A stretch of 64,000 nt of DNA from Asterochloris sp. CNOR1 (Eukaryota > Chlorophyta > Trebouxiophyceae > Trebouxiales > Trebouxiaceae). Positions within the stretch are counted from its first letter, which is position 1; every line of letters begins with the position of its first letter. The notes beneath the pieces are model-generated. The model worked only from the letters and a program-made list of their open reading frames with translations, searched no databases and had not been told where the DNA came from. Both the position numbers and the translations under genes were made by a program. Positions 1 to 62,720 of the stretch are shown piece after piece. Location of the stretch: the NCBI GenBank assembly GCA_963969365.1, contig OZ017747.1, positions 4,030,001 to 4,094,000 on the forward strand. Direction: 5' to 3'.

Positions 1-2322
1 TAGACTGCCCTCCCACCTTCACCATGTACGCCTTTGACGCCGCTGTCAATGATGCTCAAGTGATAACCGTGCCCCGCCGGGAGCACTTCCAGTTGGACGT
101 GGCAGGTGAACCGATGCTGTGGCCAGCTTGCTTCTGCTGGGCCCACATGGCCCTTGCGCAGTTGTCATGCCACTCATTCAATCTGGCGCGTGCGGGATGA
201 CTAAGCTATGGTGCAGTGCCTCATGACCTCTTTGGCAAAGGGAGACTTTGGTCTCACAATTCTTTGTCAAGTGTAAGCTCACCAGGCGTCGCTGCCTGCT
301 GTTGAGCCGTCCTGTCCCCATGAAGCACTGCAGGCACTTTGACATTCAGCCGCAAGCAGGACACATATCAGCTGCTCATGCTGTGCCGTGCCGACCCTCA
401 TGCTCCTCTGCGCAGGCCATGACCTCCCTGTGCTGTGCAGGCATTGCTGGCGCGGTGCTGTGGCGATGCTCCTAAACCGCATTCTCTCCACCTCACTGCC
501 ATCCCTCGCCGGCAAACCCCTGGCCTGCGCAGGCATCATAGCCGCAGGCAGCAGCTCTGGCGGTTTTCCGGCGGTTTTCCCGAGCTATCCCTTGAACCCT
601 GCCAGACCTATGCGGATGTAGCTCTCTGCCCTGTGCAGGCATCACATCAGCAGTGCGGCAGCACCGCCGCAAGGCAGTCTTCCTGACCTCCCCCACACAG
701 GCAGCTAAACAGCTGCCCTGCATTATGTGCAGGCATCACGTCTGCGGTGGAGCTGCACCGCCCTAAGGCGGTCTTCCTGACCTCGCCCAACAACCCTGAC
801 GGCAGCCTCATCGCTGAGGCAGACCTGCTGGCAGTGCTGCGGCTGCCCGTGCTGGTGGTGCTGGATGAGGCCTACATTGAATTTGCAGAGGAGCCCTCGC
901 GCATGGACTGGGTGCAGCTGCATGACAACCTTGTGGTGCTGCGCACCTTCAGCAAGAGCGCGGGACTGGCAGGCATTCGTGTGAGTGGGGTTGTTTCTGG
1001 TGCCTTCTGGGGGCTGGCATGTGGGTGGCTGTTGGGGCGTTGTAGGTGGCATTGCTATACAGCATGGGTGGAAAGGCATGACAAACTGGTGGTGCTGCAC
1101 ACCAGTAACGACATGGTGGTGTCAGCAGGCATCTGGGGGGGTAGTTTGGTGACTGCCTTCTCAGGTACTTTCTCAGATAACTTGGTGAGGCAGCTGGCTA
1201 TCTGGTCAGGCCTGGGCGGGCTTGCAGTGGGTGTTGATGATCCTCACGCGGCCTTGTTGTGCACCAAATCACTACGTGGTGGTCCTGCACACCTTTAGCA
1301 GGAGCGCAGGGCTGATGGAGTGGAGTGAGTGCTTGGCTGCTTGCATAGCATAGCTGGCCTTGGGTAGGTTGCTTTGTCTGGCTCAGTCAGCCGGCCTTGT
1401 TGTAATTCATCAGGTCGCTTTGCAGCGTCTGTGCTGTTTGTAGCCTGCATGAAGGGCGTCACTTGGCTGCCGACATGAGCACCTCAGACTTTCCCGACGT
1501 CAGACTGTCAGCGCTGCTGCTGCTGCTGCAGTCCGCTGCCATAAGGGTCTGAGGACCTTCAAACAGTACTTTCTGGGATCGCGCCCCACTCGTGTCCCCA
1601 GCTTGCCCTGTGCTACTGCTGACTGCTTGAGCATCCGTAACTGCAGGTGGGCTATGGTGCCTTCCCTCTCAGCATTGTGGAGTACCTGTGGCGGGCCAAG
1701 CAGCCCTACAACGTGTCAGCAGCGTCAGAGATAGCAGCATGTGCTGCCCTGACTAATATGTCGTACCTTCAGGTAGGCCTGAAACATGAGTTGACATGCG
1801 ACCATGCAGCCACCACTCTGCTACAGGTCCAGGCAATCATGACAGAAAGTGGTGGCGTGCACTGCCCAGCCCCCATGCAAGTCAGCTACCATCTGTGCAT
1901 AGCAGCTCCCTGCAGGCGGCTCCAGTGCTCCCTCATTGTGCTGGCCTTTCTAGATAGGTTTTGTTTTGCTGGCCTGATGACACTGGCTGATTGTGCTGGG
2001 CGCAGGCAGATGCAGATAGAACTGCGCCTCAGCAATGCGTGCTGTGCTGTAGGACGTGCGGAACAAACTGGTGGACGAGCGGGAGCGGCTGTTCCAGCAG
2101 TTGCGAAGCATACCCTTCTTGCAGCCCTACCCCTCAAATGCCAACTTCATTCTGTGCAAGGTCCAAGCTGGGCAGGATGCCAAGGCCGTTAAAGATGATT
2201 TGGCAAAGCAGGGTGTCATGGTGCGCCACTATGCCAAGAAGGAGTTGAGTGGCTTCATCAGAATATCAGTGGGCAAGCCTGAGCAGACAGAAGTACTGAT
2301 GCAAGCACTGCAGCAACTCTGA
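1..2322 (+). CDS. hisC: Histidinol-phosphate aminotransferase, 3' part (5' end outside window)
   Basis: PLP enzyme converting imidazole-acetol phosphate to histidinol phosphate in histidine synthesis; plastid location is expected in green algae but the N-terminus is outside the window. Exons 1-105, 733-980, 1647-1772 and 2053-2322 join in frame (phases 1, 0, 0, stop). Visible motifs are [15 protein letters not shown] (substrate-side loop), [10 protein letters not shown] (cofactor-binding Asn region), LDEAYIEF (Asp/Tyr for PLP) and [12 protein letters not shown] with the PLP lysine, split from GYGAFP by an intron. The C-terminus ends [12 protein letters not shown]...MQALQQL, as in the family. 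Both longer introns are full of decayed copies of exon 2 ends (see repeats). It converges on the next gene with 94 bp between stop codons. Confidence 0.93.
436..732 (+). repeat. Acceptor ladder in HisC intron 1
   Basis: The 3' splice site plus start of exon 2 (GCAG|GCATCACG...) is repeated upstream. AG|GCAT junctions follow at about 441, 533, 639 and the true 733, spaced 92, 106 and 94 bp. The copy at 639 still reads [15 protein letters not shown] in frame, against [15 protein letters not shown] in the real exon; older copies are more decayed. Confidence 0.85.
1065..1330 (+). repeat. Donor-side copies of exon 2 in HisC intron 2
   Basis: The end of exon 2 ([19 protein letters not shown] followed by GTGAGT) recurs in the intron as decayed copies: near 1073-1130 reading [10 protein letters not shown], and near 1265-1330 reading [14 protein letters not shown] followed by a GTGAGT-like site. 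A weaker copy lies between them near 1170-1230. Confidence 0.75.
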
Positions 2323-2416
2323 TCAGTTTGGATTCAGTAATGATGAAATGCAACAAGAGGCGTTTATGAAATTTCAGTGACCACTCAATACCAGTGCATA
2401 GACAGCCTCACAATTT

Positions 2417-5400: not shown

Positions 5401-8400
5401 GGCGGTCCCCCCTCAGAACGACCAGCAGCGGGCGCCCAAGTACCATGAAGGCCAGGGTCTTTGCAATGCGGGTGGCGGGGCAGTTGAGGGCGGCTGCAGC
5501 CTGGCTGGCTGTTGCGATGCTGCCTGCAGCGGTCAGGAGGAGTGTCTGAGCGCTGGTGCCGCATACAGCTGGCGCGGCAGACCAGCTCGGCTGCGGCTGC
5601 AACTGCAACAAAATGCTTCAAGTGCTGGTCAACCATGCTCTCAACAAGCAGAGCTCAGCATGCTCCACATTGCAGATCAGACACAGCCTGACCTGTTGAG
5701 GGATTCCTGTACACATCCAGGCAAGCCAGTGCATCAGGCAGCGTGGCGGACCCTCACCTGTTCCACCAGGGAGGCAGCGGAGTGCTGCTGACAGGTTGTG
5801 CTGGGCCAAGCACGCTCGTACCCGGGCCAGGCCCCCAGCAGTGCCATCAGTGGCCTGCACTCCACTGACGCCTGAAGCGCAGCCACCACTTCCAGGATGC
5901 AGTGCCGGCCCTGCAGTGGCGCTGGCTGGCTGCCGTGCGCCTGAGCTGCTCTGGCCCTCAGCCAGCTCGGGGCCTGCCTGCCTGTCCAGCCCAGCAGGGT
6001 GCGCCGTTCCTGCCCCGCTCTGCCGCGCCGTGCATGTGCGCAGGGGTTCTGCCTGAGAGGCGGCTCCTGATGCCCCCATCTCAGCATTGCCCGCAGCCAA
6101 GGCATTGGCTGCTGCGCCAGCTGCATGTGCCGTGGCAGCAGCAGCGGCTGCAGTGCCGCCAGCAGCAGATGAAGCCACCGCAGGCGCTCGCCCATAACCA
6201 CCGTCAACATCATCATCGCTATCTGTATCCGGAGTCCCTTCTATAGGCAGCCCTGCCAGCGCTGCCTGCTGGCTGCTGGCACCGTTGGCAGCCGCAGTGC
6301 CCGTGCTGCTGGCCCCGTTGCTGCTTGCAGCAACTTTGCTGAGGTCTGCTGCTGGAGGCTCCGTCTCACCAAACTCCTCTTGCTGTGGCAAATCGCTTGA
6401 CACTACACCGGCCAGACCGTCCCCAGTCCTGCCAACCCCACTGCCAGGCATTCCAGAACTGCTGGTGACGGCCTGGCCAGTGCCTGCTGCAGCCCCAGCT
6501 GCAGGTGGACTGCTGGCAGAACCATTTCCTGCCCGCGTGTGTTCCCCGCTGCCCGCTGCCAAGCCTGGGCCGGTGTCACTGGCACCGCCTGCCCGCCGCT
6601 CAGTCCCGCTGCCCAATGGTGTCGTGCTGCTGCCTGCCTGGCCCCCACTCACATCGCTTGCATGTGGCCCATTCCCGCGGCCTGCTGAAGGTCTGCCAGG
6701 CGGCCCGCCAGGCCAGGCGAAGGTGAAGGCCTGCAGCTGCTGAGGCAGCAGGCAGCCCGGCCCACTGCTGAGGTGGCGGTGGACTTGCACAGCCACATGG
6801 GCATCCAGTGCGGCATAGTGCAGCTGTTTGGGGCTCAGTGGGCGAGTCTCCCAGTCCGAGCACTGCAGGCAGTAAGGTGGTCGGTCGGTCTAGATGCTGG
6901 TGAATATCTGAACTGCTGAGTTGGAGCGCAGGCTACCGGCAGCAGCAGCAGGCGAGAGTGGGGGCTGCCTGGCAGACCGGGCAAAGACCTGCCTGCATGG
7001 CCTTATTGAGCGGCTTGCCCAGGATGCTGGCTGCAATGGTGGACAGGCCCACAGCATTCTTGGAGCCGCCACGCCCGGCCGGCAGATTGTGCAGCCGGGC
7101 AAAGGCCAGCCAGGGCCCCTTCAGGTCCAGCAGGCGCTCCGCGTGTCTGAAAGCGGACATGCCAGGGTAGGAAGCCCTCAGGGTTTTCAGGTCTGAGGCC
7201 AGGCCACATCCCAGCTTGACTGCCTGGAAGCAGGAGTGCATGGAGTTCATGTGGTGCAGATGCCACCAGGATAACAGCAGGTAGAGCAAGAGACATTAGA
7301 CCAACCAGCTGTCTACCAGATAGAGCGATCACCTGGGTGCTCTGCAGCAGGCAGCTGAGGAGAGTGTCCAGCGCGGGCTCTGGGTTGAGAGCCACCAGAT
7401 CAAAGATGAAGACATGGGTCGCGGACGCCACCTGCAGGCATTTGCCAGGGAGTTAGAATGAGGGTATGCTGCTGAAAAGCAGCAAAAGCACGCAGCTCCT
7501 TGGAGACTGAGCATGTGGGTGCTCGTCAGGGAACGCTGTGCTTTGCAACAGGCACAAAATGGAAGCAGGGACGCCGTGTATGATGCCTGATGCAAATCCG
7601 CCAAGACGTGAGGCAAGGCGTGTGGCACCTGCAGGATGCTGGCCTTCTGGCCGCCCCCTCGGCTGCCAGTGGGCCTCCATTCCACATCGATGCCCAGAGC
7701 TTCAGCCGAGCTCAGCACAGCCGCCGCCCTGCACAGCACAACATCAGAGAGCTGTTTTTCATCCCCCAACACAAAGGGGTGCATGTCCAGGACCGCACTC
7801 GCAGCAGCAGCCCTGCACACAGCAGCAGCAGGATGGCTCTTCAAGAAACTCACACCAGATGCATCCCTGATCAGTCTCCAAGCTGCAGTTCATGTTGGTA
7901 CAAGCCGAGCAAACAAATCAGCACTGCAAGATGCTAGCTATTGACCTCAGGCAAGTAAGCAAGAACTGCTGCTGGCCTTGGAGGGCTGGCAGGCAGCCGT
8001 CCAACAAAGGACAGCCTCTGCCAGAGGGATGGCTGCAGCTTCGGGAGGCTGCTCTTGCTTCTCAACACCCGCAGCGCCTCCATCAACTGAATAAACAGAG
8101 TCGGGCAGTGCAAGACCCAAGACTGAGTGTCTCCCTTCCCACAAGCAGCGCTGCTCACAAGGTGCACAGCTCTCAGCCAGCAGGCGCAGCTGCAGGGTTT
8201 CACCAACACGCAACTCCCAGAAGGGCCCCTCACCTCTCCACACCAGCAGCGCTGTCCACGAAATGCACAGCCTCAGGGACGAGAGGTAGCTGCAGGTACT
8301 GCTGCCGCTCCAGCTCCTCGTGGGCAGCCAGCTCTGCTGTGCTGACAGCCACCAGGGATGGGTCCAGCCCAAACTGGGCCCTGCACTCCTCGGCTTTCAC

Positions 8401-11400
8401 CATCTGGCCGGCGATCACCATCGCCTTCACGAGAGATTCCTGCACGACACGTGCAGCGCTGTCTGGGCACAGGTGGTGTCTGCTGTGGGCAGCTGCAGGG
8501 CTGCCTCAGCAGAAGTCCTTTTGCCCAGACAGGACTGGCATATGTTAACATGGCATGCCCTAATGAACATGTATGCTGACGCGGGCACCGAAGAGCACCA
8601 GCACATGTGCTGTCTGATGGAGATTGCTTTGCCACAGCAGACATACCTGCGGGTGATGTGTGCAGCAGAGGTCGGGAGAGGTGCCCTGGCAGCTGCAGAC
8701 ATTGTGTGGCAGGCCAGACGGGGATGTGCTTCACAGCCTCTGTGGCTTGGGCAAGCTCAGAGCCAGTCTGCACATCAAGCGAGCTCAGGCACTGCCTCTC
8801 TGGTAAGCACGCCAGCAGCTGGCTGCTCACAAGTGGAGTTGAGCAGCAGGGACCCACCTGCAGGCTGCGGTCCTGCCCCACAAAGGTGGCTGCGATGTCG
8901 AATTGCTCCCTTTCCACCAGTCTGGCCAGAGTCCTGCTCTTGTAGAGACTATCGATGTCTGGAAATTCCTGCAGCATGGTAGTTGTCACTTCTTAACGTC
9001 GGCACTTCACCATGCAAGCACTGGCAATCAGCACTGTGTGCTTGGTACATCCGCCCTTGGACACCGATAGCTCAGCAAGCAGATACCAGGCATAAAGCAA
9101 TTGGAGCTTGCTGCCCCACCAAGATGGGCCCACCCCACTTGAGGCAGAACCTGCTGCAGCCCCCAATACAACTCCTGGCAGGCTCCCCCCACTTCCCCTT
9201 TGCATTGTCTCAGTCCTTTCAGAAGCGGCCTTGTTTGAGTAACCAGCCTGCTTCACAGAAAGCACCACCCAGTCCCCACAGACGCCAACAAGACCCACCT
9301 CATCCTGACTACTGCAGATTGCCAAATTCGGTCTCCACAAGCTGCCACCCCAGGCGCCCCATCAGCCTGACAGCCTCCCCTGTCCACGCAGTGCAGAGTT
9401 CAGTGACAAACCCCACCTCACCTGAGGGAGTGCCCCACTCCCCAACCCTGCGCCACCTGCTGCAGCCCCATGTGCCCCATCAGCAGTGCAGCCTGACTTC
9501 AAGCAGGCCACCTGTTGCAGGGAACCCCTTACCATCTTGAGCGACCCCAGGCGCCCGACCTGCTGCAGCGCCGTGCGCCTGCCCAGCCTCACGCTCCACA
9601 TGCTGCACAGCCACCGAGGTCTTGCAATACCTCAAATTCACCTGCTGCGGCCCGCGCTTGCCCAGCCTCAGACCCCAAATGCCGTGCAAACACCTGCAGG
9701 CCTTCCCTCGGCCCCCACCTGCTGCAGCCTCAGGCGCTTGACCAGCCTGACAGCCTCCTTCAGGCGGTCCACCTCCATGCAGAAGGCCACCAGCGCCACC
9801 TGCTGCCCGTGAGCCAGCGTGGCAGCCCAGCGCTCAGCTAGGCCCTGCTGCCCATCGACCACCAGGCCTTGCAGCACGGCTGCCTGGTCTATGTGTGCAG
9901 CCAGCTCCTGCACAGGCAGTACATGGCTTGTGACTGCACAATCTTCTGGCAGCAGGTGCAGGAAGACCGCCTGGTCTATGTCCAGGATCAGCTGTTGCAA
10001 ACAAAGCTGCGGCTTGCTTTTCAAGGCCTTGAAGTGCAATGATTGGCCCGATGTACATAAGCAGCCAGCTTCTGCACAGAAGCAGCACAGCTGCATGTTT
10101 GCAGTACCTCCCCTGACTTCTGCAGCTGAGCCTGGCGGCTCAGATAGCCAAGAGGACAGTTGACCACGACAGATGCTGCACAAAGTGATGCCAGTCGAGG
10201 GCATCTCACTGCCATTCAACTCCATGCTGCAGTGTGGCCTGATGCACCAGCTCACCGGAAACTGTATTGTCAGAGTGACCAGGGGGACCAGCCACTGGTT
10301 CGAATCCTGGAGGCTGACTGCAAAGTTGATGAGAGCCTGCTGGCTGGGGACATCCTCGACGCGCAGCTCAAAGCTCTGCATGACCTGAAAGGGCGACGCA
10401 TCGAGGCTCAGGAAAGCTGGGAGGAGTCAGGCATGCGCCAGACATTAGTTGACAAGCAGAATACGGGGCAGTGCTGTGTTGTGCAGCTCTACGGTGCAGA
10501 GGATTTGTGGCATGGTGCCTGCATAGAAGCTGGTCAGCCACGCTTGGCAGCGCCACTTGTCCTGCTGCAAGGCTCACATGTGTGTTGCGACAGAGTTGCT
10601 GCCCAGATTGTGGGCCACTTGAAGGAATGGCGCCAAATGAGCAAGCTTGCCCCAAGAAGTGGTAGACTGGTGGCCAATGCTAAGATCCGCACCTTTATGG
10701 CCAGCCGAGCGTGCTGTGGCTGCATGCAGCGAGCAAACAGCTGCCCGGCTGCCCCACGGCTCTCGTTGATAGCCTGAGGATGTAGATGGCCCACAGTGGG
10801 CACAATCTCTAGCAGGAGGTGGTTGACCGCTGCCATGGTGCCAGCAAGCTCCTCTGCGCGTGGCTGCTCGGCATCCAACATGTTGTGTTGAATGGCGCTG
10901 CATATGAACTGCATTGCCTGCCCAGGATCGGTCTGCAGTTATGGGCAGAAGGTTAAGCTACCATGGCAGGGATCAACAGGCAAGCATCATATGATGTGCA
11001 TGCGCACCTGGGTAAAGCAGTATGCCTGCAGGCCTCGCTGTAGGATCTTGAAGTGGTTGGTGCCCCCCTGCAACTGGGTACACAGCTCATGCAGGAAGGT
11101 GGGCACGTCATTGTCGTTGACTTGCTGCCTTAAGGCCTCCCAGTGGACTGCATGGTCCACTTCAACACTCATGACGGCCCGGATCCTGTTGAGGGCCAAT
11201 ACACAAAGTCGCTGTGACTAAGCTCAGCTTGACCTAGCTTCAGGATCAGATCCGTGTTCCTGCCAACAAAGGTTTGTGTCTCTGCCCATTGTAGACCATG
11301 AAGCAACTTCCACGGTTGTCAGGGCAGTGTCAACAGCACCAGCAGCCATGCTGCCTGCCCAGGCTCCATGGTATGCACGGCAGAGGCACCATTCCTGTAC

Positions 11401-11818: not shown

Positions 11819-12033
11819 CGTCTCACCACATAACAAAGTCAAACACCATCGCCAGCAGTCCTGCAGGCAGAGCGGCGGCCGGCGGGCACGCCCTTTGGGC
11901 ACAGTAACGCACAGTCCATACTGCAGACCTTTGCGGACCACTGTCCCATGCCATGCAACCAGGTCGACAGCCTGGCAGAGTGCAGTTGGCACCACATGCC
12001 AACATGCAGAAGTCCTTGTGTGCTGCCCTGCAG

Positions 12034-12952: not shown

Positions 12953-13345
12953 CAGCTTGCCTGTCGCCAATGGCCACTAGCAACGTGCTGTGCTCAGCAT
13001 GCAAGTAGCACGTGCATGCTTGGGCTGACCCTTGCACAGGGCAAACTAGTCAAAATAAAGTTGCTTTCCAAGTTGACTGGCCACTGAGGCATATTCAACA
13101 GCAAAATCACATATGTGCGTGTTTAGCACAAGCATTAAGTCAGAGCAATGGCACATGAAGGAGGTCAAAAGCAATACTAGCATTTGGGCATCCTGCGACA
13201 TTCATGTCAAGTCTTATCTCTGGTCTACAGCGCCATGCATTTTGTATTGCAAGCTGGCTCTGGTCAGGATAGCTGACCTGGCAGTGGGGGATGAGTCAGT
13301 CAGAAGCTGAGTCTCTGTGGTCACAGATGAAGTGCTGCTTCCCAG

Positions 13346-20631: not shown

Positions 20632-23600
20632 TCACACCCCAGCTCTTGGCTTCAATAACTCCTTGATGAGTCGTGCTGGGGAATCAACATGTGGAAAGTT
20701 GCGGAAGCGTTCATGGTGGTAGGCAGCCTGCACAGCAATGGGCAGCGGGTGTCGTAGTGCATAACTCCTCCAGGGCTCTTTGCCGGTGTCCATTGCATCA
20801 AGTGTGATGCATACATCAAGCATAGGGCCTTGGCACAGATGGACAACCAGACAAGGCTGTGCATAATAAGCCTGTGTGTTGGTCAGCTGCAAGTTCCAGT
20901 GACAGGCAGCCCACCTGGATAATTGTGCCATGCTGCTGAGCCTTGGCCACCAGCTCCTCGCAGCCACTCACCAGGGCACACAGCCCCTCAACCTGCAGCA
21001 CAGGCGCTTTGTTGGGACGCTGATTCCTGGTCCCTAATGCGTAACTATGCAAGGTGGCCCACCAGCTGCAGCTTGCTGACAACCAGACAATTCTGCTTGC
21101 TTTTACACATCTCAGCTGAGATGTTGGGGCTGCACCCTGCCTTCAGCATCTCCAAGCTGGCAGCATGCAGGGGCCTGCAATGACATGCCACTCTTGTGCT
21201 CTGGCACTGAAGCAGTTGTACAGCAGTGATATACCATGAAGCAGTTATACAGCAGTGATGCCTGCGCTCGCAGTGTCAGTGAGTTCTGCAGCGCACCTGC
21301 ATCGTGACCCGCCTGTGAGCATCTGCGCGCGCCTGCTGCAGCAGTCCCACCTTCACAGGAGCTGCAGTTGTTGGGGCGTCCCCCCCTGTCGGCTTCTCTG
21401 CAGCAGGTTCTGCAGCGGACTGGCCCCCTGCATTACGCCGCACGAGTCTCTGAGCTTCAGTTCCCAACCTGCGCTTTGCCAGCTCTAGGCTTGCAGCTAG
21501 CAGCCGGCATGCAGCTCAGCAGACTAAGGCAGCGAGGCCTGGCCCCATGATGAGAGTGGTGCCTGCAGCAACCTGAGTACCACACACCCTGCAAGTGCTA
21601 TCAGACCGCGAGGGGCGCTGCAGACCAGCACAGACCCGTCATGCTTGTCAGACCTTCCATGCCCTCGCAATGAAATGCATCCAGGCACTCCCAGTATGCT
21701 GACACCACAAGCGCTGGCAGCTGAAGCATGTCTGCATGGCCCTGCCTGCCACCCTGTTGTTGTTGAAGCACCCTTGTTCCGGCTTGAAGGCACCAAAGTT
21801 TGCTTGTCTGTGCAGGAAGCTATGAACACAGACAGTGATAACGAGCAGCATCACCTTCAGCTGCCTCCTGTGCATCCCCCCCCTGAGCCGCAGCCACGTC
21901 TCCTGTCTGGCTTGGCACCTCTGCCTCTGCGCTGTGTAGCGCAGTTTCCTGGTGCTCTTCCTGGACTGGTTCCACATATCCGGTCTGGCAAGGCAGCTGT
22001 GCCTCCGCACTGGGCAGCGCAGTGTCCCGGTGCTCCTCCAGAACACGCTTCCAACCCTCCTCCTCCTGCAGCCCGAGCGCGCGAGGCACCATCAGGATCA
22101 ATGCATTGCATTGTGAGGTCCTTGGTGTTTGGTGGTTGTCAGAGCAGCATTGCAGGCATGCCACCAGGTCCTCAGCGCAGCTTACAGTCCAGATTTCTTT
22201 GACCCACTCCATAACACGCAGGTGGCCAGCTGCGCTGCCACTGCTGTCTTAGAACGCACCATCGCGTCTTCAGGACGAACCAGTGCACATGCAGGCTGCC
22301 TGTGAAGGCCTCACCTCCTTCAGATTGGCTAACTGTGCTGTCAGTGCTGCCTTGCGGGTTGCTGGATCCTCTCCCACCATCAAGTCGCTGAAGTCAGCAT
22401 CGCCCAGGGGCAGCTGCGGGGCCGCAAACTGCACAGCACAACACAGAACAGCTCTGCGCTGCCGCCACACTGTTGAAATGTGGAGGCACTGCAGCCAAGA
22501 ACGGCTTCTGTCGTCACTTTGCCGGTGCACGGCAGCGCCACCGCAGAGCCGTCCCTGCAGCCAGGCTGCCTGTGCACAGCAGCACTGCCCCACTCCTGCA
22601 GCCAGGCTGCCTGTTGGCAGGGCCAAGTGCAGTGCTGCTTGAGTCAGCATGGCCCTCAAAGCCAACTGCCAGGCTGCTAGCAAGTTTTTGTTGACTGCCC
22701 TCCGCCAAAGCGCTCAGCACCAGCCACAGGGCACCACATGTCCTGCTGCAAGTCACGCATGCCATCCACCTGAGATCTTCTGCCATTGTGGCGCACAAGC
22801 TTGAGTTCGTGCAGAGTCCAGCTGCCGTGGGCTTACCAGGACGCTCCTGTGAGGCAACAGCGCCTTCCCACCCAGGCTGTGCAAAGCCACCTGGGCTCGG
22901 GCAGGCTCTGCAGCGCAGTCATAGCTGCAGCATACGCTGCTGAGGACTGCACCTGAACTAGTCCCTCTGCAGTAGGCCCCAAATTCCCCCTTGCACATGA
23001 GGTTGTGAGCTGCACCTTGATGGCCGGGCGCAGCCCAGATGGGCACCCACTCAGGCTAAGGAGCCTCTCTGCAAGGTTGCCACAGAGCTGCAGCAGACAC
23101 TTCCTAGATCATCCCCTGTGCGGCGGTGTCCTCGTCCCCCTCCCATGCAGAGACGATGCTGTGGATTGCACTTGCGTGGCGCCTCTGCAGTATTGCCAGA
23201 GCTGCAGGAGTGACTGCTTCGAGACATCACCTGAATGCTCCCCTCGGCAGCAGCGCTCTGCACCAGCTCCACAAAACATGACAGGCCGGCCTGCACAGCC
23301 TCTGCGCCGTCCCTGGCTGCAGCATCACAGCCCGCTGCCTGCAGCCACCAGCAGCTGATGTTAGTCTGAGCAGGCCAGCTTGGCCGCATTCAGGTCACAG
23401 CTACAGCTGGCCGAGCCAGAGCATGAGATGTTGAAACCACAGCGTGACTTGTTGATGGGCGGCACGCATAGCCCGTGCTGCAAGTTTGCACAGGCTCAAG
23501 CCAGCAAAGCACACCCTTACGCAAAGCTGTTGCTCTGGGTGTCCAAGTGGGCGGGCACAGCTTGAGAGCATGTTTGGACTTGACAACAAAGGAATGCAAA

Positions 23601-27484: not shown

Positions 27485-30400
27485 TTACATGGCTTCAAGC
27501 TCATCTGAGGCCACCATCACATCCCCCCACCGGACACCATACTTGGCTGCCAGGTAGTGGGATCCAACAGGCCCTCTGCTGCCATAGGGGTACAGCTCTG
27601 GTGCGATCTGCTTGTCCTCCAGCTCCTGCAGTCATCAGCAGTATGTCAGGAGGCACAGCTCCACCCTGTGCCTGGCTGGAGCCACAGCAGGAAGCAGGCA
27701 TAGGCCTGCCCAAAAGGACAGGCTGCAGCCCAGATGTCGGGCTGTAGGTGCATCCCAGACATACACGCAGGGCCTGCGTCAGCCCATTGCTGCAAGCTTA
27801 CAGCCAGAAACGTGCGATTCCATCCCACCTTGAGAATTGGTGTGAACAACTCCCAGGCCGCTGCCAGCTCATCATTCCTGATGAACAGGCGCTTGTCACC
27901 ATTGATGACGTCCAGAATGAGGCGCTCATAGGCATCGGGCAGGTGCTTATTGTAGCGCGCCTTGTATGAAAGGTCCAGCTTGGTGACATCCAGGTTCAGG
28001 CCCAGGCCAGGCACCTTGTTGTTGATTTTGAGGTATATTGACTCATTTGGTTGGATTCGGATGACCTGCAGCCAGGAACAGGAACAAAGTTGGGCAGAAC
28101 ACTGAAAGTGCTGCTCCAAGTGAGCTGCACATGGCCAATGTGCAGGCCGGGTCAGGGAACAGCATGCAGCTGTGTGGGTGTTGACCACAACGTAGAATGA
28201 TTGACATCTTCATGGGAAGTCACCCTGAGGGCAGTCTGCTTTGCAGCAGGCTGGGATGCAGGAACAAAGCTGCCTTCTGGTGACTGCGGCAGGTGCCCAG
28301 ACTGCCACGCCAGCCTGCTGTTCCCTTCTCTCAGGTCCTCACCAGCTCGTTGGTGGACCGGTCCAGGTCCATGCCCATTTTGTTGCGGTAGATGTTCCCC
28401 GGGACATGCCTGAACTGCACGCGAATCTCGGCGCGCTTGGAGTGCATGGCCTTGCCAGCCTTCAGCAGGAAAGGCACGCCATCCCAGCGCGCATTGTTGA
28501 TGAAGCATGCCACGGCAGCAAAGGTGGGGCACAGACTGCAGCAGGGCATGTCACGTTGTCAAGCAGGAGACACAGGCCAGAAAGTGTGGTGAGGCACAAA
28601 GGACAGCACCACCATGCCACCACACAGTGCTGATGGAGCGGGCCACAGCAGCAAAGATGGGGAGATTAGCTGCAGGTAGCACAAGGGGCAGCCATCAGGG
28701 GAGGCACTGGTTCAGGTCATGGACAAGCCCTTGCAGGTGTGCAGACTGGGTGGTGTGGGGGCTTCCAGCATCACCTGCAGCTTTGCACTAGAAGGGGCGC
28801 CTGCTTCAGCAGCACCACCTCCCAACGGGCTTTCGCGCCCTTTGGCACAGTGCTGTCGTCTCCAACCTCTGTCGATTGCAGTGCTATACCCATTGCTCAG
28901 TGTCACCATGCATCTCCCTGGAAACTCATCTGCCCTTTGGCACAGTGTTGTCCTCCAAGTTGCCCCATCTGCTGGGTCTCTGCTTGCAGTGCTGCCCTGA
29001 AATGCAAAGCGTCACCAGGTGCCTCACCTGCCCTCTGGCACAGTATCGTCCTCCAGGTAGCCCAGCTTCTGGTGGGTCTCAGTCTTGCGTCCGCGGTATT
29101 GCCCCACAACCACGTCATCCATGCTGATGGGGTTCATGTTGCGCAACACCTTGACCTTCTCATTGCGGATGTCCTCTGCATCCAGGCTGACCTACAGGGC
29201 AGGACAACCAAGAACAGTGGAGCCACCTGTTGCTGCGACATCGATGGGCACAGCAGGATTGCTGCTAGTCCAGGTGGATCTGCAGAGACTTCAGACACTG
29301 CCAATGCTCCCTAAACCTCTTGAGCACAGGTGTTCTCAGTGCCCAAGATGACAGCAGCAGGGCAGGTATAGCTGGCAGCCTGCCATTCCAGTACGATGCT
29401 GCTGAGCCAATGCCCTCCACGGCCGGGCAATTTCTGCAGATCAGAGGGACGCTGATGCCGCAGATGTCCTCTGCAGGTCAGGGCAGTGTATGCAACGGCT
29501 TCTGTGGCGACAACTGCAGGCAGCAGGGAGGCAGTCAGCCGCAAGCTTGCAGCTGCTGTCCCATCACAGGGGAGCACAATGACAGTGTTGCACGGCAGGG
29601 GCTTGCACCATGTCCTGACTGCCCTGCAGGAGGGCATAAATGTGGTGATGGGGATGCCGTCCCTGCATGGACAGCAGTTGCGTTGCTGGCATGCAAGTCA
29701 GTCGGCAGCGCTCCTGCTTGGGACTTGGCAAGACCTCAAAACAGGAGGCCAGAGCACTTGTCCTCGACAGATGGGGCAGCAGCGCATTGCAAAGGCAAAG
29801 GCAAGGGTGGGACCACTGCCCAGTGCGATGCTGCCGACCGCAACACCACAGCAGCAAAGCTTTGCTGGAGGGCAGCAACAGTCCTGCGGATACTCAGTAG
29901 CTCCTGATGCTGACACTGAATGGCAGGGCTGCAGAAGGGCTGATAGTGCAATGCTGCAGCTGCACAACCTCACTGGCAGCGCCATGCCCGGTGAATCTGA
30001 CTGCCTGCCCTGCAGTGAACTCCCCCTAGCCTCACCGGTGGCTCCATGGCGAACAGGGACAAGATCTGGAGCAGATGGTTCTGGATCACATCACGGATGA
30101 TGCCGTACTTGTCGAAGTAGCCCCCACGCCCCTCTGTGCCAAAGTCCTCACTGAAGATCACCTGCAGCTTGTCTGGATTTGGATCAGACAACTTCTTGGT
30201 CTGCTGGGTGCTTTTGAACACCAGCCTGATTTGCTAGGGGTCCTTGCTGTACAAGCATATTTTGCAGCATACACACAAATAGTATGCTGGTGCCAGGCTG
30301 TGCCCGTCCATGCCCATTTGTGTTAGCTGATGCTAATCTGAGGTGTGAGGAGAAACTCACACTCCTCTGCTCTAGGCAGCAAGGGCGGGGCGTTTGGGGA

Positions 30401-42818: not shown

Positions 42819-42915
42819 TCTGATGGGTGATGCGGCAGCTGTTGCTGCCTATTTCTTACAGGCTCATAGCCGCAGCTGGGGTCAACGCCTGGCAAAGACC
42901 AAACCACTTCGCACC
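42819..42915. promoter_or_regulatory. Compact bidirectional promoter between TRIP4 and katanin
   Basis: Only 97 bp separate the chosen start codons of two divergent genes. No TATA box is evident. An alternative in-frame-looking ATG at 42823 would leave just 4 bp, but the katanin family starts at the later ATG. Confidence 0.55.
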
Positions 42916-48388
<5,473 letters not shown>

Positions 48389-48835
48389 TGCTATCAAAAT
48401 TTGTGGAAGGCTGATGATGGTGTCAATGCTAACATTGCCCTGGGCACAGAGAGGACCCTCGAAGCTTAGCAACCAAGCAAAGACCACGGCTCATGTCTCC
48501 TCTGTTGCTGGTGCCATCTCTCGCCCCTGATGTACCTTCAACAGAGTGTACAGGAGCTTTCACGTGTTGCTCAGGGTCAGAATTCTCAATGGACTGCAAG
48601 CCCCTCTGCCCTTCAAGAGAGCATGTATCTGTCAGATCATGACAGGTGTTCAGGTGCTTCAAGCTGTGCTCCTGCTTTGCATCTGTGACAGTAGCAACAC
48701 ACTTTCTGGACAGCTGGGGCAAGATCATAATTGTTGCAACTCTCATCAGATTGATTTGGATTTTTCTACTGATGCTCCCATTCTTGCATGTGCCCTCGAA
48801 ACGCTTGCAGCTGGCTTTCAAAGCTACATGGAGCC

Positions 48836-51800
48836 ATGCGTCTGCTCACGGGCATGCTCAAATCGAAAGTCACTCTTGGACTAGCAGCTGGATCCGGTGC
48901 CACCCTGCTGTACAAGGCAGGAGCTCATCCTAAGGAGGCACAGGTATAGCGCAAATCCCTTTGGCATTGCTGTCTGCAGACTCACTGCCGGCCCACTGCA
49001 GGACAACATCAGCAATGCTGCAGCAAAGGTTGCTCAGCTATCAGACGCAACAGGAGCATTGGTGCAGTCACTGTCCTCTGCCTTTCACAGCGCAAACAAC
49101 AGCAAGGAGTCCCGCCGAGGTGTGTCCTGCCAGCTCAGCTCAATGGTCTAGGCTTTGATGATCTCATTAGCTCTTGCCCACATTTCCCCCTAAATTGCTC
49201 TCACAAATTATGCAGGGCGGGTGCTTAACTCCTTTGCCTCTCATGTCCTGGAGTGGTCAGAGGATGAGGGCAAGAGAGAGGCTCTTGTGCAGCTGGGACG
49301 CAGTGCGCTGATCACATGGCTGCTCAACAGGGCCCAGCAGAAGCAGGGGCAGTCGGCCGAAGAGCAGCAGGAGGCAGAGGCCACCCTTCTCAATCTGCTG
49401 GCAGACCGTGAGTGATGCGACCGGCGGAGGGGGGCAGAGTGCAGATCAGCCTCTACCGCTGTACCTTAACCCCTCTGCTGGAGCGCTCTGCAGCGAGCAC
49501 CTTGCAGCCAGACTTGACCACAGCCACATCTGCATCCAGTATCTCTGCAACTGCTCAGAAGGCAGGCCAGGAACCTCTGGCCCCAGCCTCGAGCGCCATG
49601 TCACGGGTGCTCACTGCCACTGAGCATGTGTGTGCAAATTCCCAAGCTGCTGTGATATAAGCAGCCTCTCTGCAGGAGCGTCAATACTTATCAGTAGCAT
49701 GTCTGCCTGCAGCCACGACCGCCTCAGCTGTTCTCAACTGCGAGGGCGCCCCTGCCCGCCTGCTGCATCTGGTGGCTGACAGCGGCGATGCAGACGCCAT
49801 GGCGGAGCTGGTGGCCCAATCTCTGGCTGTGGTCCGGCCCACCACCACGCCCACTTTCGATGAGATCAAGGACGTGCTGAACATGGTGAGCTGTCACCTC
49901 GTGACTTGCTCTGGTGCCTCATCCATGCTGGCTTCCTGCAGCAGTGCACCCCTACTGGGGAATCTCACATGCAAGCTGATGGTGTTCAGCAAGGTTTGGT
50001 GCATGGATGCAACAGCTGGCGGGTGACACCCCAGCAACAAGCAGTTTGCCAAGAAGCATGAAGGCAACATCTTGCATCTCTAGCTGGCAAGGGCTGGGCT
50101 GACACGTGAGCAGCAACTGAAGCAGACAGACTCCCCTCCAGGGCGTGATAGTTGGCCTGTGACATTGCTGCTGCAGGCAGAGGGCAAGGACGGCCCCCAG
50201 ATCATGCAGCTGGCGGTGCGTCTGCTGGGCTGCTGGGCAGATGCCTCTGTGGTCAACTGCGGCAAAATCGCTGGCATGCACGGGGGGCCCAAGCTGCTGC
50301 ATGCTGCCCAGATCGCGTCTGACCGGCCAGCCTTGCAGGTGGAACTCATCCGCACAATGGCGCTTCTGGGCAGGTGGGTCCACTGCGTGGCTGGATGGAG
50401 GAGCATTGATGTGCAGTAGCACCACGAAGCAGGCAGGGCATGGGTGATGGTGCAGCCTAGCCAACAGGTGTGTGGGCTCTGGGTGGCAGTGCCAGCAGCA
50501 GCATGGCAAGCTCTCTGGAGCCTGCAGGCAGCCTGACTGCCCCTGTGGACGGGACTATTGAGCCAGGTGTGGCACAGGTTGGCAGATATGTCACAGGGGG
50601 ACAGGCTGCCCCATGACTTGGGTGCTCAGAGGAGGTTACAGTTGCAGGTGTGACACGGTGCTGCTGGGCAGTGTGCGATCTGGCTGCCTCATGCGCAGAG
50701 CATTGCCGGCAGGCAAGCAGCATGCGGGCGGTGGGCTGCTGAGGCTGCCGCTGGGCCTCAGGCAGGCGGGCTTGGGACAGTGCATACATGTGGAGTTTGT
50801 GCTTTGGACTCTCTCTGGACCGCATGCTTGCCTCCTGACACCCGCTGATGAGCGCAATCCCTGCAGGTGCCCTGTGTGCACCTGCCCAGCAGTAGTGGGC
50901 TGCCATCACCGCTGCTGCACCAACATTCACTGAGCACAGGTCCTGACGCAAGGAGGTCCATGCAGGGACTGCCCGAACAGGGAGCTGCTGGGCGTTGGAG
51001 ACTGGCTGCAGCACCTGGCGTACTTCACTGCAGATGCCCTCTCCGCGAGGGACCTCGACAAGGCCAGCAAGGCCCTTGACGCCTTCTCGCTCTGTGTGCA
51101 GCAGTGAGTGGCAGGATGTGGCTCTGGTCACCGCCTTTCTTGTTTGGCATCTGCATGATATGCACACAAGCATCATCTCCACAGCTGCCCTGGACGTCTC
51201 CAACTCATCTGCTGCCCCTGGCATGTTGTGATGCAGACCCCTTGGCCAAACATCATTTGGGGTTGGAGACCCTCGGCCTCTAGATGTTGGCAGCTCCGTA
51301 GCGCCCTGCCCTTGTTCCTGCACTGCAACCATGTACAGGGTGGCAGACCTCCGTGTGACAGCTTGCCCCCCACCTGCTTGCAGGCTGGACGGGCCTCCCC
51401 CGCTGCTGCCCACCAGCAACATCTTTCCCCTGCTGCATCTGCTGGGCGGCCAGTCCCACCTGCTCCTGCAGCGAGCTGTGACCACAGCAGTCGCTGCCCT
51501 GGCTCACCCAGGTCTGCCAGGGCAGGCTGCCTGCCTGTTGCCCCGGGTTACATTGCCCAGCCACCTGCCAGTCCAGTTGCAGGCTGCCAGTCAGGGCTGT
51601 GTCTAAAGATGGCTGGGTGCACAAGCAGCACTTACAGGACAACAAGCTGGGCATGCCCTGTCGTTCTGGTCACGTACCAGCAGAACTACTTTGCATCATC
51701 TGGAAGCACCCCGCCGCCCTGCAGATTCCATGCCTGGAGATGAGCGAGAGGTCTGGACGGAGAAGATGCTGGCCTGGCTGTGTAACGGGGACACTCCAGA

Positions 51801-54800: not shown

Positions 54801-57366
54801 GCCACAGGCAGCGGGTCAGCACCCACTCGCACAGCAGAGGCAGAAGCTTGCCGCCAGGCAGCGGCCAGCCGCTGTGAAGGCGGGGGCAGGCCCCCGTGTG
54901 GTGCTGCGGGATGGGGTGCACCTCTTTGACCCCACAGCCCCCCATCACTGGCTGCTGGCAAGGGAGGGAGCAGCCGCTGCTGGCGCGGGTGAGCGTTGCT
55001 TCAGACTGCTGCGGACCAAGGCTGGCCAGTGGATGTGGCCCTCTTGACTCAGAGGAGGCCACAGCATTCAGGCTGCCAAAGAGCCGATGGCGTCCCTGGT
55101 CACTCCAGGGACAACTGCATTGAATGGCAGGCAACTGGGCATCACAAGCTACCCTGTCACAGAGGCTAAGGGGACTAATGTATGGAACCGACAGCAGATG
55201 TGCTGTTGCTGGTCAGCCTGCACGGGCTATTCCTGCTTGCACACCAATCTCCCAGAGTCCTGTGGGCGGCCAGCGTCTGGTAGCTTGCAACTGGTACCAA
55301 CAGAGCATGTCGATAGTATGCACCTGGGCCCCTGACCTTAGGCTGGGGATGCACATGCCATGCAGGGGCCCCAGTGGTGGATGTTGTGTTTGTGCACGGC
55401 ATCCGTGGCGGCGCCTTTGCGACGTGGCGCCGCCTCGGGAGCCCGCCGGCCCCTGGCAGCCCCCACATGTGAGTTGGGGAGTGTCTGCACAAGCTTTGCT
55501 GCAGGATAAGCATATGCTGCACCCAGCAGCATCCCACCCACCCTGTCCATCCCCATGCTGGTCACGTCTGCCAGCAGTGGGAGGCCGGCCAGGCAGCATT
55601 CTGTGGGCTCAGCATGCCGCCTCACCTGCCTTGCACATCGAAATCAAGGCGCCTGCGGCCGACTGGCATTAGACACCTGCTGCCTGTTATTGCCTGGCAC
55701 TGGAGTGAGGCCTTATTGCTGCATGCTGACTTTTCAGTCTTCTATCTTTACACCACCTTTTTCATTTTTTTCCCTCTCTTATCTGGCAGGCCTCCCACCA
55801 CCCTGGAGCACAATCGCTGCTGGCCATCCGCCTGGCTGGCCAAGGACTGCCCCAGTGCACGCCTTTTGAGCCTGGAGTATGCAGCGCCTGCCTCAGGCTG
55901 GGAGGTGGGTGGTGGATCTGGGCATTTGAGGCGTGCCGCTCAACAAGTGCATAGTAAACATGGCATGAATCTTGTCACAGCCCTAGCCAGGCTTGTGGCC
56001 TGTGACTCTCGCTACCACCAGTGCAGTGCCTGTGGCCAGCCATCCCAATGCGTTTGCATGCTGCATGGCCATGCATTGGGGTGTCACTGGACGTGTAAGC
56101 GGCAGTCCTTCCTCTGCTGCAAAGCAGAACGATTAATCTTGGCTCCTGCTGCAGGCTGAGTCGATGCCCATCAGCGGCACTGTGGGGCAGCTAGTCAATC
56201 GACTTGTATCGGCAGGCGTGGGGCAGCGCCCTGTTGTGTTTGTGAGCCACAGGTGGGGCCTGAGCTTGTCAGCGCAGATGTTTCAAAGAGACCACTTTTG
56301 GGGGCCGCTGCCAGGTCTTTTCACGTCTGCAGCCCGCTGTCGCATATGCTCACAGTTCAATTGAGATCAGGAGGCTGGGGCCAACCTTGACATTGACTGT
56401 CTCTACATCATTTAAGGCTATGTGCTCTGCTATGCAGCATGGGGGGCATTCTGGTGAAGGAGATGCTGCGCCTGGCCTGCCTGGAGACCGCCCCTCCCCA
56501 CCAGCGCCAGCTGGCTGCCGCCACTGTCGGCCTGGTCTTCTATGCCTGCCCCCACCAGGGGAGCTGGCTGGCCAACTTGGGGTGGAACCTGCGCTGGCTG
56601 GGAGCCTCTCCAGCCTCCTCTGTACCATACCTGGTCCCTGGCCCGCATCTGGAGGCAGGTTGCCGTGCCTGCTGCACTGTGTATGCTTTTACATGCCTCT
56701 GTACGATGCCTGCTCCCTGGACTGCACCTGGAGGCTGGTCCCTGGGCCTGCTGGTCATGCACCCCAGTGGAGGGCTCCATAACCATACCTGGCTCCTGGG
56801 CTGCACCTGAATACACTTCCCCAGGGCCACTAGGCTTGGCATGCTGGCGCATATTGCACGCTCGCAGGGACCATTGTATTGTTGGAGCAGGTCATGACGG
56901 CCGGGCTGAAGGTCTGCAGGGCTGTTGCATGTCTGCCTGACTCTAAGTTTCTGAGAGCAAGAAGAAGTTTGCGCCATAGCATAGCGATGCTGCATGCTAC
57001 AGCCCGTTGTCCGCATGATGCTTGCAGCCGTTGCCCTTCCAGGGAGAGGCACCACAACTTGTGCGCTGCATGCAGGCCCAGAGCAACACTCTGAGACCTC
57101 TGATCGCGTCTGGCCAGCTCAGCGTCCTCAGCTTTGGCGAAGGCATTCCCACAGTCATCAATGGGCTGCTGCCAAAGCTGCTGGTTGTCCCAGAAGAGTC
57201 AGCAAATCCTGGCTTCGGCAATTTTGTTCTGCTGAAGGGCATCGATCATATCAACGTATGCAAACCCCTGGACCAGACTGACCCTGCCTATGCGCGGTTG
57301 CAGCAGTTTCTGCAGACTAGAATAAGAGACATCACGACCAAGGCATCTGAGCCCCATACCGCTTAA
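48836..57366 (+). CDS. SERAC1-like armadillo-repeat / alpha-beta hydrolase protein
   Basis: SERAC1 proteins act at mitochondrial-ER contacts in phospholipid remodelling; here the target is inferred only. Exon 1 (48836-48943, MRLLTGMLKSKVTLGLAAGS) gives a short hydrophobic anchor. Exons 49002-49119, 49216-49407, 49713-49885, 50177-50373 and 50981-51103, plus later ones near 51390, 51730, 52100, 52400-52555, 52845-52960, 53240-53380, 53735-53860 and 54060-54205, form a helical armadillo-like region (RALITWLLNRA-type repeats). A Gln/Pro-rich exon lies near 54540-54990. The lipase domain follows: VDVVFVHGIRGGAFATWRR (near 55370), CWPSAWLAKDCPSARLLSLEY (55815; 21 residues shortened here to CWPSAWLAKDCPSARLL), QRPVVFVSH joined across an intron to SMGGILVKEMLRLA (56438) with the GxSxG serine, FYACPHQGSWLANL, and FVLLKGIDHINVCKP with the catalytic His (57043-57366). 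The borders of the middle exons are approximate. Confidence 0.88.
56600..56830 (+). repeat. Donor-side copies in a SERAC1 intron
   Basis: CCTGGTCCCTGGCCCGCATC with GGAGGCAG|GT (near 56660) is echoed by TGCTCCCTGGACTGCACCTG with GAGGCTG|GT (near 56740) and GGCTCCTGGGCTGCACCTGA (near 56805), at intervals of about 60-75 bp. Confidence 0.65.
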
Positions 57367-57502
57367 CAGATATGTATTTCATGGCCCTCAAGGCACCAAC
57401 AGCATATGCATGAACCATGAGGGCCTAATCATAATGGCTGTCAAACAAAAGAATGCATGTTGCACATACTATGAATTGCTGTGATGAATTGATTTGATCA
57501 CA

Positions 57503-60498: not shown

Positions 60499-60508
60499 CT
60501 GCAGGAGA

Positions 60509-61715
60509 GCTTCCACAGTTGGTGGCTGATACTTTGCTTGCTACGTGGGTGCCAATTGACGTGCACGCTGATCACTGGGGCAGCCCGCAGATGACCCCCT
60601 TCATGGCGGCAGGCAGGGGCTTGGGAGCTGCAGCAGCCTCTTATGCGTTGCAAAGAGAGCACTGTGAGCCTTGGCAAGGCTCACATTGGCGCCACGCTGA
60701 GCAGCTGTGGGAGGGGTGCCTGCCGCACAGCCTGAGGCTGTGGACTCATGATGTAGCTTGCCGAGTGGCTACAGACAGCACCCTGTGCAGTAGGAGTTGG
60801 GTTGCTGCGTGACAGCAGCTTGCAACAAGCTGCAACCCAAACACGTGGCTTCCCTAGGCACAGGCGTCTGTGCTGAGTGCTTAAGTATGCGACAGACATC
60901 ACTGAGCCATGGCAGTGATCCCAGAAGACAAGTAGTGATATTGCTCCGAACCCAGACCACACCTTCCGTTCCTGGCACTGTTTTGGCCTACGGCAGCAGC
61001 ATGTCACTCAGGAGGCATGGCGCCAGCAAGGGCCTCTTTGGCCACATCCAGGGCACCATGGGAACTAGTCACTCTGATGAATTGCCAGGATTGCATGGCA
61101 GAACACGTGAGGCTTCTGTTGCATGCTTTCAACAGCACAGCTTGCATTGAGCTGTGCGTCAAAGTTATCTGATGCATATGCAGGCCATGAGCGGGATATT
61201 GAGCGTGCAGAAAGACGTGCTCGCTGGGCTGCCAGAGCGGCGCATGAGCATGGGTGGGACTGCGCCCTCTGTCCCTCCCGCCCGCTGTTGGGGCATTGTG
61301 AAGAGAACCTGACAGCCTTGCCTCTGCTCGTGCAGGGACGCTTGGGACCCTGATACTGACCCAGCATCCCAGCCCCGGTGAGCATGTACCTGAGTGCATG
61401 TGGATGAAGGCCACAGCCTTCCAGGATGTGCTGTTGCTACTCAGCAGGGCGCAATGTCTTGCGGCCAAAACTTGTAGCATCTGCAACGTGTCACTCCTTT
61501 CACCAATTGCTGCAAGCTTGATGTTCAGCCATGTGTCGCAGGCTGTCGTAGCCTCAGTGGCTGCTGGTCCTGGCCCTGCCAGGCCCCACTAGTGCTGCAC
61601 CATGCTCTTGCAGCATGCTGCAGAGAGAGTGGCCGTGCAGCAAGGCCCCCCGTGGCCCTGCCAGGCCACACAGGTGCACAGCTCGACCCCTCCTCTGTCT
61701 GCACTGTCTGCAGGT
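60509..61715. other. Between the Dus gene and the next plus-strand gene
   Basis: Expected to hold the Dus first exon (minus) and 5' exons of the downstream plus-strand gene. Candidate pieces are MSLRRHGASKGLFGHIQ from an ATG near 61001 (+), HERDIERAERRARWAARAAH near 61190 (+), and a Ser-rich minus-strand frame starting MLQVLAARHCALLSSNSTS near 61486. None could be joined. A perfect 15-bp duplication (GACCAAGGCACGA) is at 60272-60300. Confidence 0.35.
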
Positions 61716-62720
61716 ACAGGCCATCACTGCGGCATGGGCTGGAGGATCAGGCACTGATCTGCAGCTTCAGATTCACAGAGGAGAACCGTGCCATCCGCGA
61801 ATTCGTGGTCAACGCAGTGACGACGAGCAGAGAGGTGGCGGCTTGGGTCTCGCGGCTGGGCCTGCCTGTCAACTCCATCCAGGACAAGCTGCCATACCAC
61901 AGGTCCGCCAGCTGCTGCCCTCTTGACATGGAGGCATCAAAAAATTGGGGGACAGGCAACCTACAGAGCTGTCATGGTCTCAATTCTGCAGATGTGGGCC
62001 TGCCCATTGCTATGATCCAGGTCGGCCTGCCATACAGCAGGTCAGCCCCTGCAGGTATAGATTATGGCAGCCGGGGTATGGCACACCTCTGCCTGCAAGC
62101 CCTGGGGCTGACACCCTGAAGGTCAATCTCACCAGCTGCACAGTCACTCCTGAGTCTTCTGACTGATCCAGGTGCTTGCGCCACGCCCGCCAACTGGCAG
62201 GTCGTCATGTCTCCTGCCTGCTTCCACCTGCTCCCCAAGATGCTTTCGCAGCAGCAGTACAGGTAGCACCCTGGATTGCAATGCGCCCTTACCTGCAGGA
62301 AGGTCATTTTTTGCGGCAGCTGGCCCGCAACCATTCCCCTCAGCCATTTGTTCTCAGCAGCTCCCAGAGCTGTGTCTGTTGTCACTTGCCGATGCGACAT
62401 CGTAGCCCGCCCTGCAGATGCAAAATGTTTCAGACAGCTCTCTGGTTGTGGGCCTTGACACACTGCTGTGAGGCAGCTGGCTGGTTGCTGTACTCTTCAC
62501 CGGCACCTGCTGCAGGGAGGCCATGTCAGGCGCGCCTGGCACCATCATAGTCAGCCACGACCTGCGCCGTTTTGAGGCTGCCCACAAGGATGGCAGCCTG
62601 TACAGGACCGACTTGCCCCGGCGCCCCCGTCCAGTGTTCAAAGTGGACTCGCCGGGCATTGGGGCCACCATTGCAGCCAACCTGGCGCTCATAGGGGTCC
62701 TGTTCACCATCAGGGTCTGA
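61716..62720 (+). CDS. Unidentified protein with C-terminal membrane segment, 5' end unresolved
   Basis: Not recognised. Exon from about 61716 to 61901 reads QALICSFRFTEENRAIREFV and SREVAAWVSRLGLPVNSIQD. A middle exon (62172-62261) reads TPANWQVVMSPACFHLLPKM. The last exon (about 62519-62720) reads GAPGTIIVSHDLRRFEAAHK, DGSLYRTDLPRRPRPVFKVD and ends with a hydrophobic segment GIGATIAANLALIGVLFTIRV (21 residues; core ATIAANLALIGVLF), which looks like a tail anchor. A copy of the first exon's end lies at 61990-62040. The phase between exon 1 and the middle exon does not fit directly, so another exon or the duplicated copy (from 61991) is probably used. Confidence 0.5.
61985..62050 (+). repeat. 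Copy of an exon end plus donor in the last gene
   Basis: GLPVNSIQDKLPYHR followed by GTCCGC (donor near 61901) is repeated as GLPIAMIQVGLPYSR followed by GTCAGC near 62040, about 140 bp downstream, with its own TGCAG acceptor just ahead. Confidence 0.8.

Follow-up and report, generated by a model that had tools for sequence, protein, structure and literature searches.

The window analysed here is a stretch of 64,000 nucleotides from the green alga Asterochloris sp. CNOR1 (bases 4,030,001–4,094,000 of contig C2, in an assembly of 56.4 Mb and 21 contigs), in which an initial annotation had named HisC, a Mut-7 fusion, Ycf54, a gene referred to as the 25-kb gene, G6PDH, katanin p60, SERAC1 and a gene referred to as the 62-kb gene. 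Introns of all eight had been described as carrying 'ladders', that is, regularly spaced direct copies of the adjacent exon end together with its donor or acceptor splice site, and these had been attributed to repeated short tandem duplication across splice sites. The window also contains a Whirly gene; both Whirly and Ycf54 are expected for a photosynthetic alga or plant. Here, we examined the ladders in the window and in 24 further 10-kb stretches taken from 17 of the other contigs (total sample 304 kb, ~0.5% of the genome). The observation was confirmed in part, and so was its interpretation, for which tandem duplication across splice sites was supported in the 304-kb sample.

Gene models were predicted using a purpose-written, self-training ab initio gene finder that was trained on and applied to the same 304 kb, and all introns considered here are predicted introns (working set, 469 complete introns). 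The gene finder learned the donor (C)AG/GTGAG and a very strict acceptor, CTGCAG/G (the slash marks the junction). Under a stricter penalty, the structures of HisC and katanin were recovered and read through correctly; a lax penalty gave many very short exons, including three false exons inside HisC intron 981–1646, one of which overlapped a ladder copy. Eight of the 13 window models were submitted to Pfam and all eight were matched. The model at 2680–11172 of the window was predicted to encode a 3'-5' exonuclease domain (the Mut-7 of the initial annotation) with a long Ala/Gly/Ser-rich stretch and then further sequence. Katanin p60 and SERAC1 (the latter a name from the initial annotation) were joined in a single model at 42916–57366 with no intergenic gap; these may be two very close genes, and the model was divided at 48300 for per-gene counts.

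Introns were found to carry copies of their own flanking exons far more often than expected. A total of 327 of the 469 introns were testable, having flanking exons of ≥60 nt on both sides and an intron length of ≥100 (142 were dropped). At p ≤ 0.01, the final 60 nt of the preceding exon had a match within the intron in 37 of these, and the initial 60 nt of the following exon in 28 (3.3 expected in each case), such that 61 introns carried a copy of either exon end when ~6.5 were expected. Reverse-complement and reversed queries showed no excess, with 4, 3 and 5 of the 327 introns matched at the same threshold cf. 3.3 expected. The ladders are real and extend beyond the window.

In the window itself, where 80-nt queries were used with no limit on exon length and two tests per intron, 16 of 96 predicted introns (a number that includes any introns too short to test) had an exon-end copy at p ≤ 0.01 relative to random intron sequence of equal length, cf. 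~2 expected. Six of the eight named genes bore out the original description by this test: copies were present in 2 of 3 introns of HisC, 5 of 16 in the Mut-7 fusion, 2 of 7 in the 25-kb gene, 2 of 10 in G6PDH, 2 of 11 in katanin and 1 of 18 in SERAC1. The ladder reported for Ycf54 was not recovered (0 of 1 introns). The 62-kb gene also scored 0 of 3, as the gene finder read both copies as one exon, but the repeat itself is real. Two genes that had not been listed, Whirly and a gene at 13–16 kb, each had one copy-bearing intron out of four. The reported spacings of 57, 94 and 140 bp were reproduced by sequence comparison. Multiple copies were the minority case, with two or more on 17 of 71 copy-bearing intron sides, and the claim that the copies furthest from the junction are the most decayed did not hold, as the nearest copy was better in 9, worse in 7 and equal in 1 of these 17; the katanin ladder does follow it. 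The individual features are listed below.

Features of the window (64,000 nucleotides), with positions counted from its first base
Feature	Position	Strand	Evidence and detail
HisC intron, acceptor-side ladder	106..732	+	Self-match, p = 0.003, gene model, Pfam; TGTGCAG/exon start at 726–789 copied at 632–695 (94 bp offset, 84% identical); additional, weaker steps resembling acceptors upstream of these, by eye only
HisC intron, donor-side ladder	981..1646	+	Self-match, intron copy test; exon end 909–947 copied at 1065–1103 (156 bp) and again near 1268–1314
Mut-7 fusion intron	7813..8233	-	Exon end 8236–8271 copied at 8135–8170 (101 bp), p = 0.003
Mut-7 fusion, cluster of related copies	9311..10255	-	Offsets 77, 79, 87, 118, 159, 262, 380; spread over a number of short predicted exons and introns; uncertain exon assignment
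25-kb gene, 78-bp tandem	21894..22039	-	Two similar in-frame 26-residue protein repeats; contrast case
G6PDH intron 28536–29027, ladders from both ends	28479..29088	-	Both ends p = 0.003; donor side 29023–29088 / 28925–28987 / 28837–28860 (offsets 98 and 95 bp); acceptor side 28479–28529 / 28612–28662 (offset 133 bp)
Katanin p60 intron 44851–45537, four-step donor ladder	44828..45279	+	Steps of ~140 bp: 44828, 44968, 45109, 45245; GGTAAGT kept in second step, donor lost in last two; single genome match
Katanin intron 46669–47672, acceptor-side 57-bp tandem	47554..47684	+	TGCAG/GTGATG at real and decoy site
SERAC1 intron with copy of downstream exon start	50374..50965	+	p = 0.003
SERAC1, three copies at 79 bp spacing	56617..56809	+	Over predicted weak donor 56634; GT lost in the compared decoy
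62-kb gene, exon end and GT (61903) copied 138 bp downstream (62041)	61857..62047	+	

The strongest tandem in the 25-kb gene is a coding repeat rather than an intron ladder. The repeat in the 62-kb gene, with an offset of 138 (a multiple of three) and an open frame, may be intronic and could be coding. Outside the window, locus L017 carried an acceptor and ~40 nt of exon start in four copies, at steps of 84, 92 and 139 bp, while at L013 (545–740) a 68-bp unit occurred in three head-to-tail copies across a predicted donor. The first two of these were 99% identical; among the junction ladders of the sample this is the most recent one observed, and it would suit a study of breakpoints.

Compared to controls, local direct repeats were abundant throughout. 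An ungapped diagonal scan (offsets 20–1000, low complexity removed, score ≥20) was used because a BLAST self-search gave no offset below 60, and revealed 149 local direct pairs in the 304 kb, cf. none in a dinucleotide shuffle, 2 direct pairs at offsets of 3.0–3.98 kb and 20 local inverted pairs. Self-comparison of the window gave 10 matches at E ≤ 0.001, all of them direct and 78–380 bp apart with none inverted, and a direct BLAST pair within 500 bp at E ≤ 0.001 was present in 22 of 31 ten-kb chunks. Thus, local direct duplication is real and widespread in the sample. The median offset was 135 bp (10th and 90th percentiles, 60 and 381 bp), and 75 of 100 families consisted of two copies, with some arrays reaching 3–6. 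By class, 63 pairs were exon-intron, 62 intron-intron, 12 intergenic and 12 exon-exon. Copies detectable in this way covered 4.8% of intron, 3.7% of exon and 2.2% of intergenic bases.

Aligned segments spanned less than half of the offset in 100 of the 149 pairs, as might be expected of scattered patches. The sequence next to this core was also compared, at offsets ≤220. Where both flanks were intronic, similarity at p < 0.05 was seen in 10 of 34 comparisons for exon-intron pairs and in 26 of 69 for intron-intron pairs, and flanks containing exon were similar in 9 of 42 and 4 of 9, respectively. The remainder of the unit is thus also alike beyond random intron sequence, as expected under tandem duplication, and the units look tandem and decayed rather than dispersed. 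The pairs share the layout of tandem arrays, being head-to-tail, local and on the same strand.

Pair classes were compared to those obtained under slid annotation (300 slides). Exon-intron pairs were in excess (63 vs 45.5 expected, reached by 1 of 300 slides), intron-intron pairs were close to expectation (62 vs 64.5) and exon-exon pairs were fewer (12 vs 18.4). BLAST pairs gave 78 vs 52.5, 64 vs 66.8 and 9 vs 19.3 for the same three classes. The contrast was weaker by bases, at 2700 vs 2355.5 for exon-intron (45 of 300). Offsets were a multiple of three in 11 of 12 exon-exon pairs cf. 19 of 63 exon-intron pairs, which indicates that coding repeats were filtered for frame while intron copies were under no frame constraint.

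We also examined what became of the duplicated splice sites. Of 57 cases of a junction and its partner, the partner was itself a predicted junction in 10 and lay in an exon in 4 (all 14 kept GT/AG), and the remaining 43 partners were placed inside an intron by the gene models. GT or AG was kept in 35 of these 43 decoys (16 of 22 donors and 19 of 21 acceptors), and 31 of the 35 scored above the 90th percentile of intronic GT/AG. Decoys scored below real sites (median 4.29 vs 7.05 for donors and 6.9 vs 8.68 for acceptors), and 5 of 33 tested decoys would add an in-frame, stop-free stretch, so that most would either have to be passed over by the spliceosome or upset the frame. As candidates for the ready set of alternative sites suggested initially, most decoys are strong by motif.

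Conservation within decoys was examined at both types of site. Of 100 decoy cells in the five columns of the acceptor motif, 94 matched, cf. a fraction of 0.74 elsewhere in the same alignments (reached by 16 of 5000 placements), and TGCAG was intact in 16 of 21 acceptor decoys by hand count, cf. 14 of 36 in intron-only pairs (Fisher p = 0.012). Donor core columns matched in 98 of 115 cells, cf. 0.776 elsewhere. The placement test showed no excess for a wider acceptor stretch (142/169), the donor core or a wider donor stretch (153/181), as these counts, which are handicapped by columns lost at alignment ends, were reached by 4613, 4850 and 4414 of 5000 placements. TGCAG/CTGCA, the near-obligatory acceptor word, occurred in introns at 6.8 per kb sense and 8.0 per kb antisense, cf. 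~1 per kb by length alone. The preference of the gene finder for TGCAG and the abundance of this motif weaken the evidence from conserved acceptor decoys, which appears suggestive.

Overall, the ladders are probably the product of short tandem duplications that arise blind to gene position and are tolerated across junctions because splicing removes the spare copy, with the result that introns lengthen. Such duplications would arise largely regardless of gene structure. Those lying wholly inside exons appear to be thinned, the survivors being in-frame protein repeats, whereas junction-spanning duplications would survive because the spliceosome continues to rely on a single outer site, which turns the surplus exon end and the splice site that goes with it into intron. 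The real exon copy would then be held by selection while spare copies decay, and as one member of an exon-intron pair is under selection, the pair would stay recognisable for longer. Some arrays would grow to 3–6 copies, and the outcome would be longer introns with strong decoy splice sites. Direct computation gave the excess relative to controls, the tandem layout, the content of junctions and the contrast in exon frame. We infer the order of events, the tolerance through splicing and a copying step by slippage or break repair.

When duplication was simulated blind to position, with indels and with an exon copy that evolved slowly (16 settings), the ratio of exon-intron to intron-intron pairs was 0.61–0.99 at a per-copy divergence of 0.1–0.4, cf. 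the observed 1.02. In keeping with the proposed explanation, the 70 of 469 introns that hosted copies were longer than others (median 508.5 vs 259). The simulated ratios indicate that the observed ratio can be produced without any junction preference, under a model that is not tightly tied, and that junctions need not be a special target of duplication.

Several findings weigh against this explanation. The simulated ratio depended on age (0.43–0.60 for younger and 1.34–3.15 for older copies), such that agreement with the observed value is possible rather than proof, and without indels (4 of 12 settings) the ratio was only 0.27–0.31. The thinning of exon-exon pairs was weak, as 30 of 300 slides gave counts as low, and by bases (850 vs 935.8) 109 of 300 did so. 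In 49 of 149 pairs the aligned copy contained a junction together with 6 bp to either side of it, cf. 33.5 under slid annotation (reached by 2 of 300 slides), with a similar direction at two further gene-finder settings (three in all). Longer introns also offer more room for copies, so that the difference in intron length alone proves little. Only 7 of 71 duplication loci (offset ≥60, exon-exon left out) had a best pair of ≥90% identity, and 2 of 24 among those without an exon copy, although a constant birth rate predicts that 28–55% of neutral pairs would be this similar; the proposed explanation gives no reason for so few recent copies. Loss of young copies alone should not, at steady state, produce a rise with age, so the simplest reading is a past wave, and the data suggest one of short tandem duplication that has since slowed, with the qualification that old pairs split into fragments and the decay model is crude. 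Lastly, the gene models are ab initio predictions from a single genome considered without relatives.

The excess of junctions inside copies, also seen among BLAST pairs (41 vs 29.5, 8 of 300), is what would be expected if junctions were a hotspot of duplication, through breakage linked to transcription or splicing, or if decoys were kept by selection as alternative or competing sites. We regard this as unlikely, if not negligibly so. It would fit the conservation of acceptor decoys and their high scores described above, and the share of pairs containing a junction (45 of 125, or 0.36) exceeded the 0.17–0.27 simulated with indels. However, the same share was 0.54–0.57 in simulations without indels, so that the comparison depends on the model, less weight falls on the junction excess, and only the slid-annotation control speaks clearly for it. 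Neither the wider acceptor stretch nor the donor columns showed an excess on placement, and the gene finder, favouring TGCAG, may in some cases have named the decoy as the real site. Decoys were also weaker than real sites and seldom in-frame and open, and exon-intron offsets lacked any frame bias. A broader version, in which junctions served as a safe harbour or hotspot during a past wave of duplication, acceptors were selected as competing or alternative sites and introns are stacks of their own junctions, seems decidedly doubtful to us. That the copies are instead genuine alternative or repeated coding exons, misread by the gene models, is quite improbable: the predominance of in-frame offsets among exon-exon pairs and the open, in-frame pair of the 62-kb gene are of this kind, but exon-intron pairs showed no frame preference, and the HisC, G6PDH and katanin models matched Pfam domains without the copies, with the G6PDH model spanning both of its domains nearly in full.

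The presence of exon-like sequence inside introns also recalls the Rogers/Hellsten model, in which an exonic AGGT segment is duplicated in tandem and an intron is born, and which is established elsewhere (passages of PMC3443670 and PMC4974935). When donor and acceptor regions were compared at an offset equal to intron length in 379 of the 469 introns, homology in this register was not beyond chance (3 vs 3.2 expected at score ≥10 and 1 vs 0.55 at score ≥12). One 500-bp pair in L003 was nearly in this register at its junctions, outside the 14 top rows of the test. Birth by exonic duplication was rejected for these introns on the lack of donor-acceptor homology and we consider it very improbable as a source of the ladders; instead, the duplications lengthened introns that already existed. 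The further claim that duplication is a main source of intron sequence would not follow from the fraction of intron bases and the number of introns involved, although older decayed copies would be invisible. Elements that lie in introns by chance, whether dispersed repeats or introner-like, are scarcely credible as a source. Matches elsewhere in the 304 kb were somewhat commoner for copies than for random segments (35 vs 23 of 149), but these were 15–59 bp long among the 30 printed, the copies match the adjoining exon, and three ladders searched in the whole genome (by a search that skips very common words) each matched only themselves. No sequence shared by many introns of different genes, and hence no dispersed family behind the ladders, was seen in this search or in the 304-kb sample, and the sequence of each ladder looks private to its own locus.

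Minisatellites and other short tandem duplications consist of units some tens to hundreds of bases long in head-to-tail order, from which the repeats described here differ in their low copy number, their strong decay and their informative position across splice sites. Internal gene duplication was reportedly found to be common in eukaryotes, and able to include whole introns, by Gao and Lynch in 2009. That work concerns intron creation and the multiplication of whole introns, while the units seen here are partial, junction-spanning and decayed.

Among the published cases considered, the closest likeness is to the potato RdRp gene, in which a new intron arose from a tandem duplication that crossed an intron-exon boundary (PMC4974935). 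In both systems a short tandem duplication crosses an existing splice junction and its signals are re-used, and the alga likewise has tandem copies that contain an exon-intron junction and have similar unit flanks. However, potato RdRp is one case with a new, additional intron, whereas in this alga many junctions are involved and the copies lie as decoys within one predicted intron. In a review table, 188 identified intron gains are put down to tandem duplication, more than in any other of the visible rows (PMC3443670). The Rogers/Hellsten model shares with the present case the contribution of gene-internal tandem duplication to intron sequence (as excerpted in PMC3443670 and PMC4974935), but here existing introns were lengthened and not born. 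Introners, which have been reported from green algae and would likewise leave the same sequence in many introns (PMC9860276, in part), differ in that ladder sequence looks private to each gene. Among the titles and abstract openings of the matches listed from the open-licence literature, no junction ladders in green algae were found, and among the same listed matches none described such ladders as a widespread route to longer introns.

For gene annotation, these results are a warning that ladder copies can be misread as exons, as in HisC intron 981–1646. The strong decoy splice sites constitute a natural set for testing spliceosome choice, and the conserved exon copy allows the duplications to be dated. 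While tandem duplication is discussed in the literature passages considered here as creating introns, in this alga it appears as a widespread lengthening of introns, which is visible because one copy is frozen as exon.

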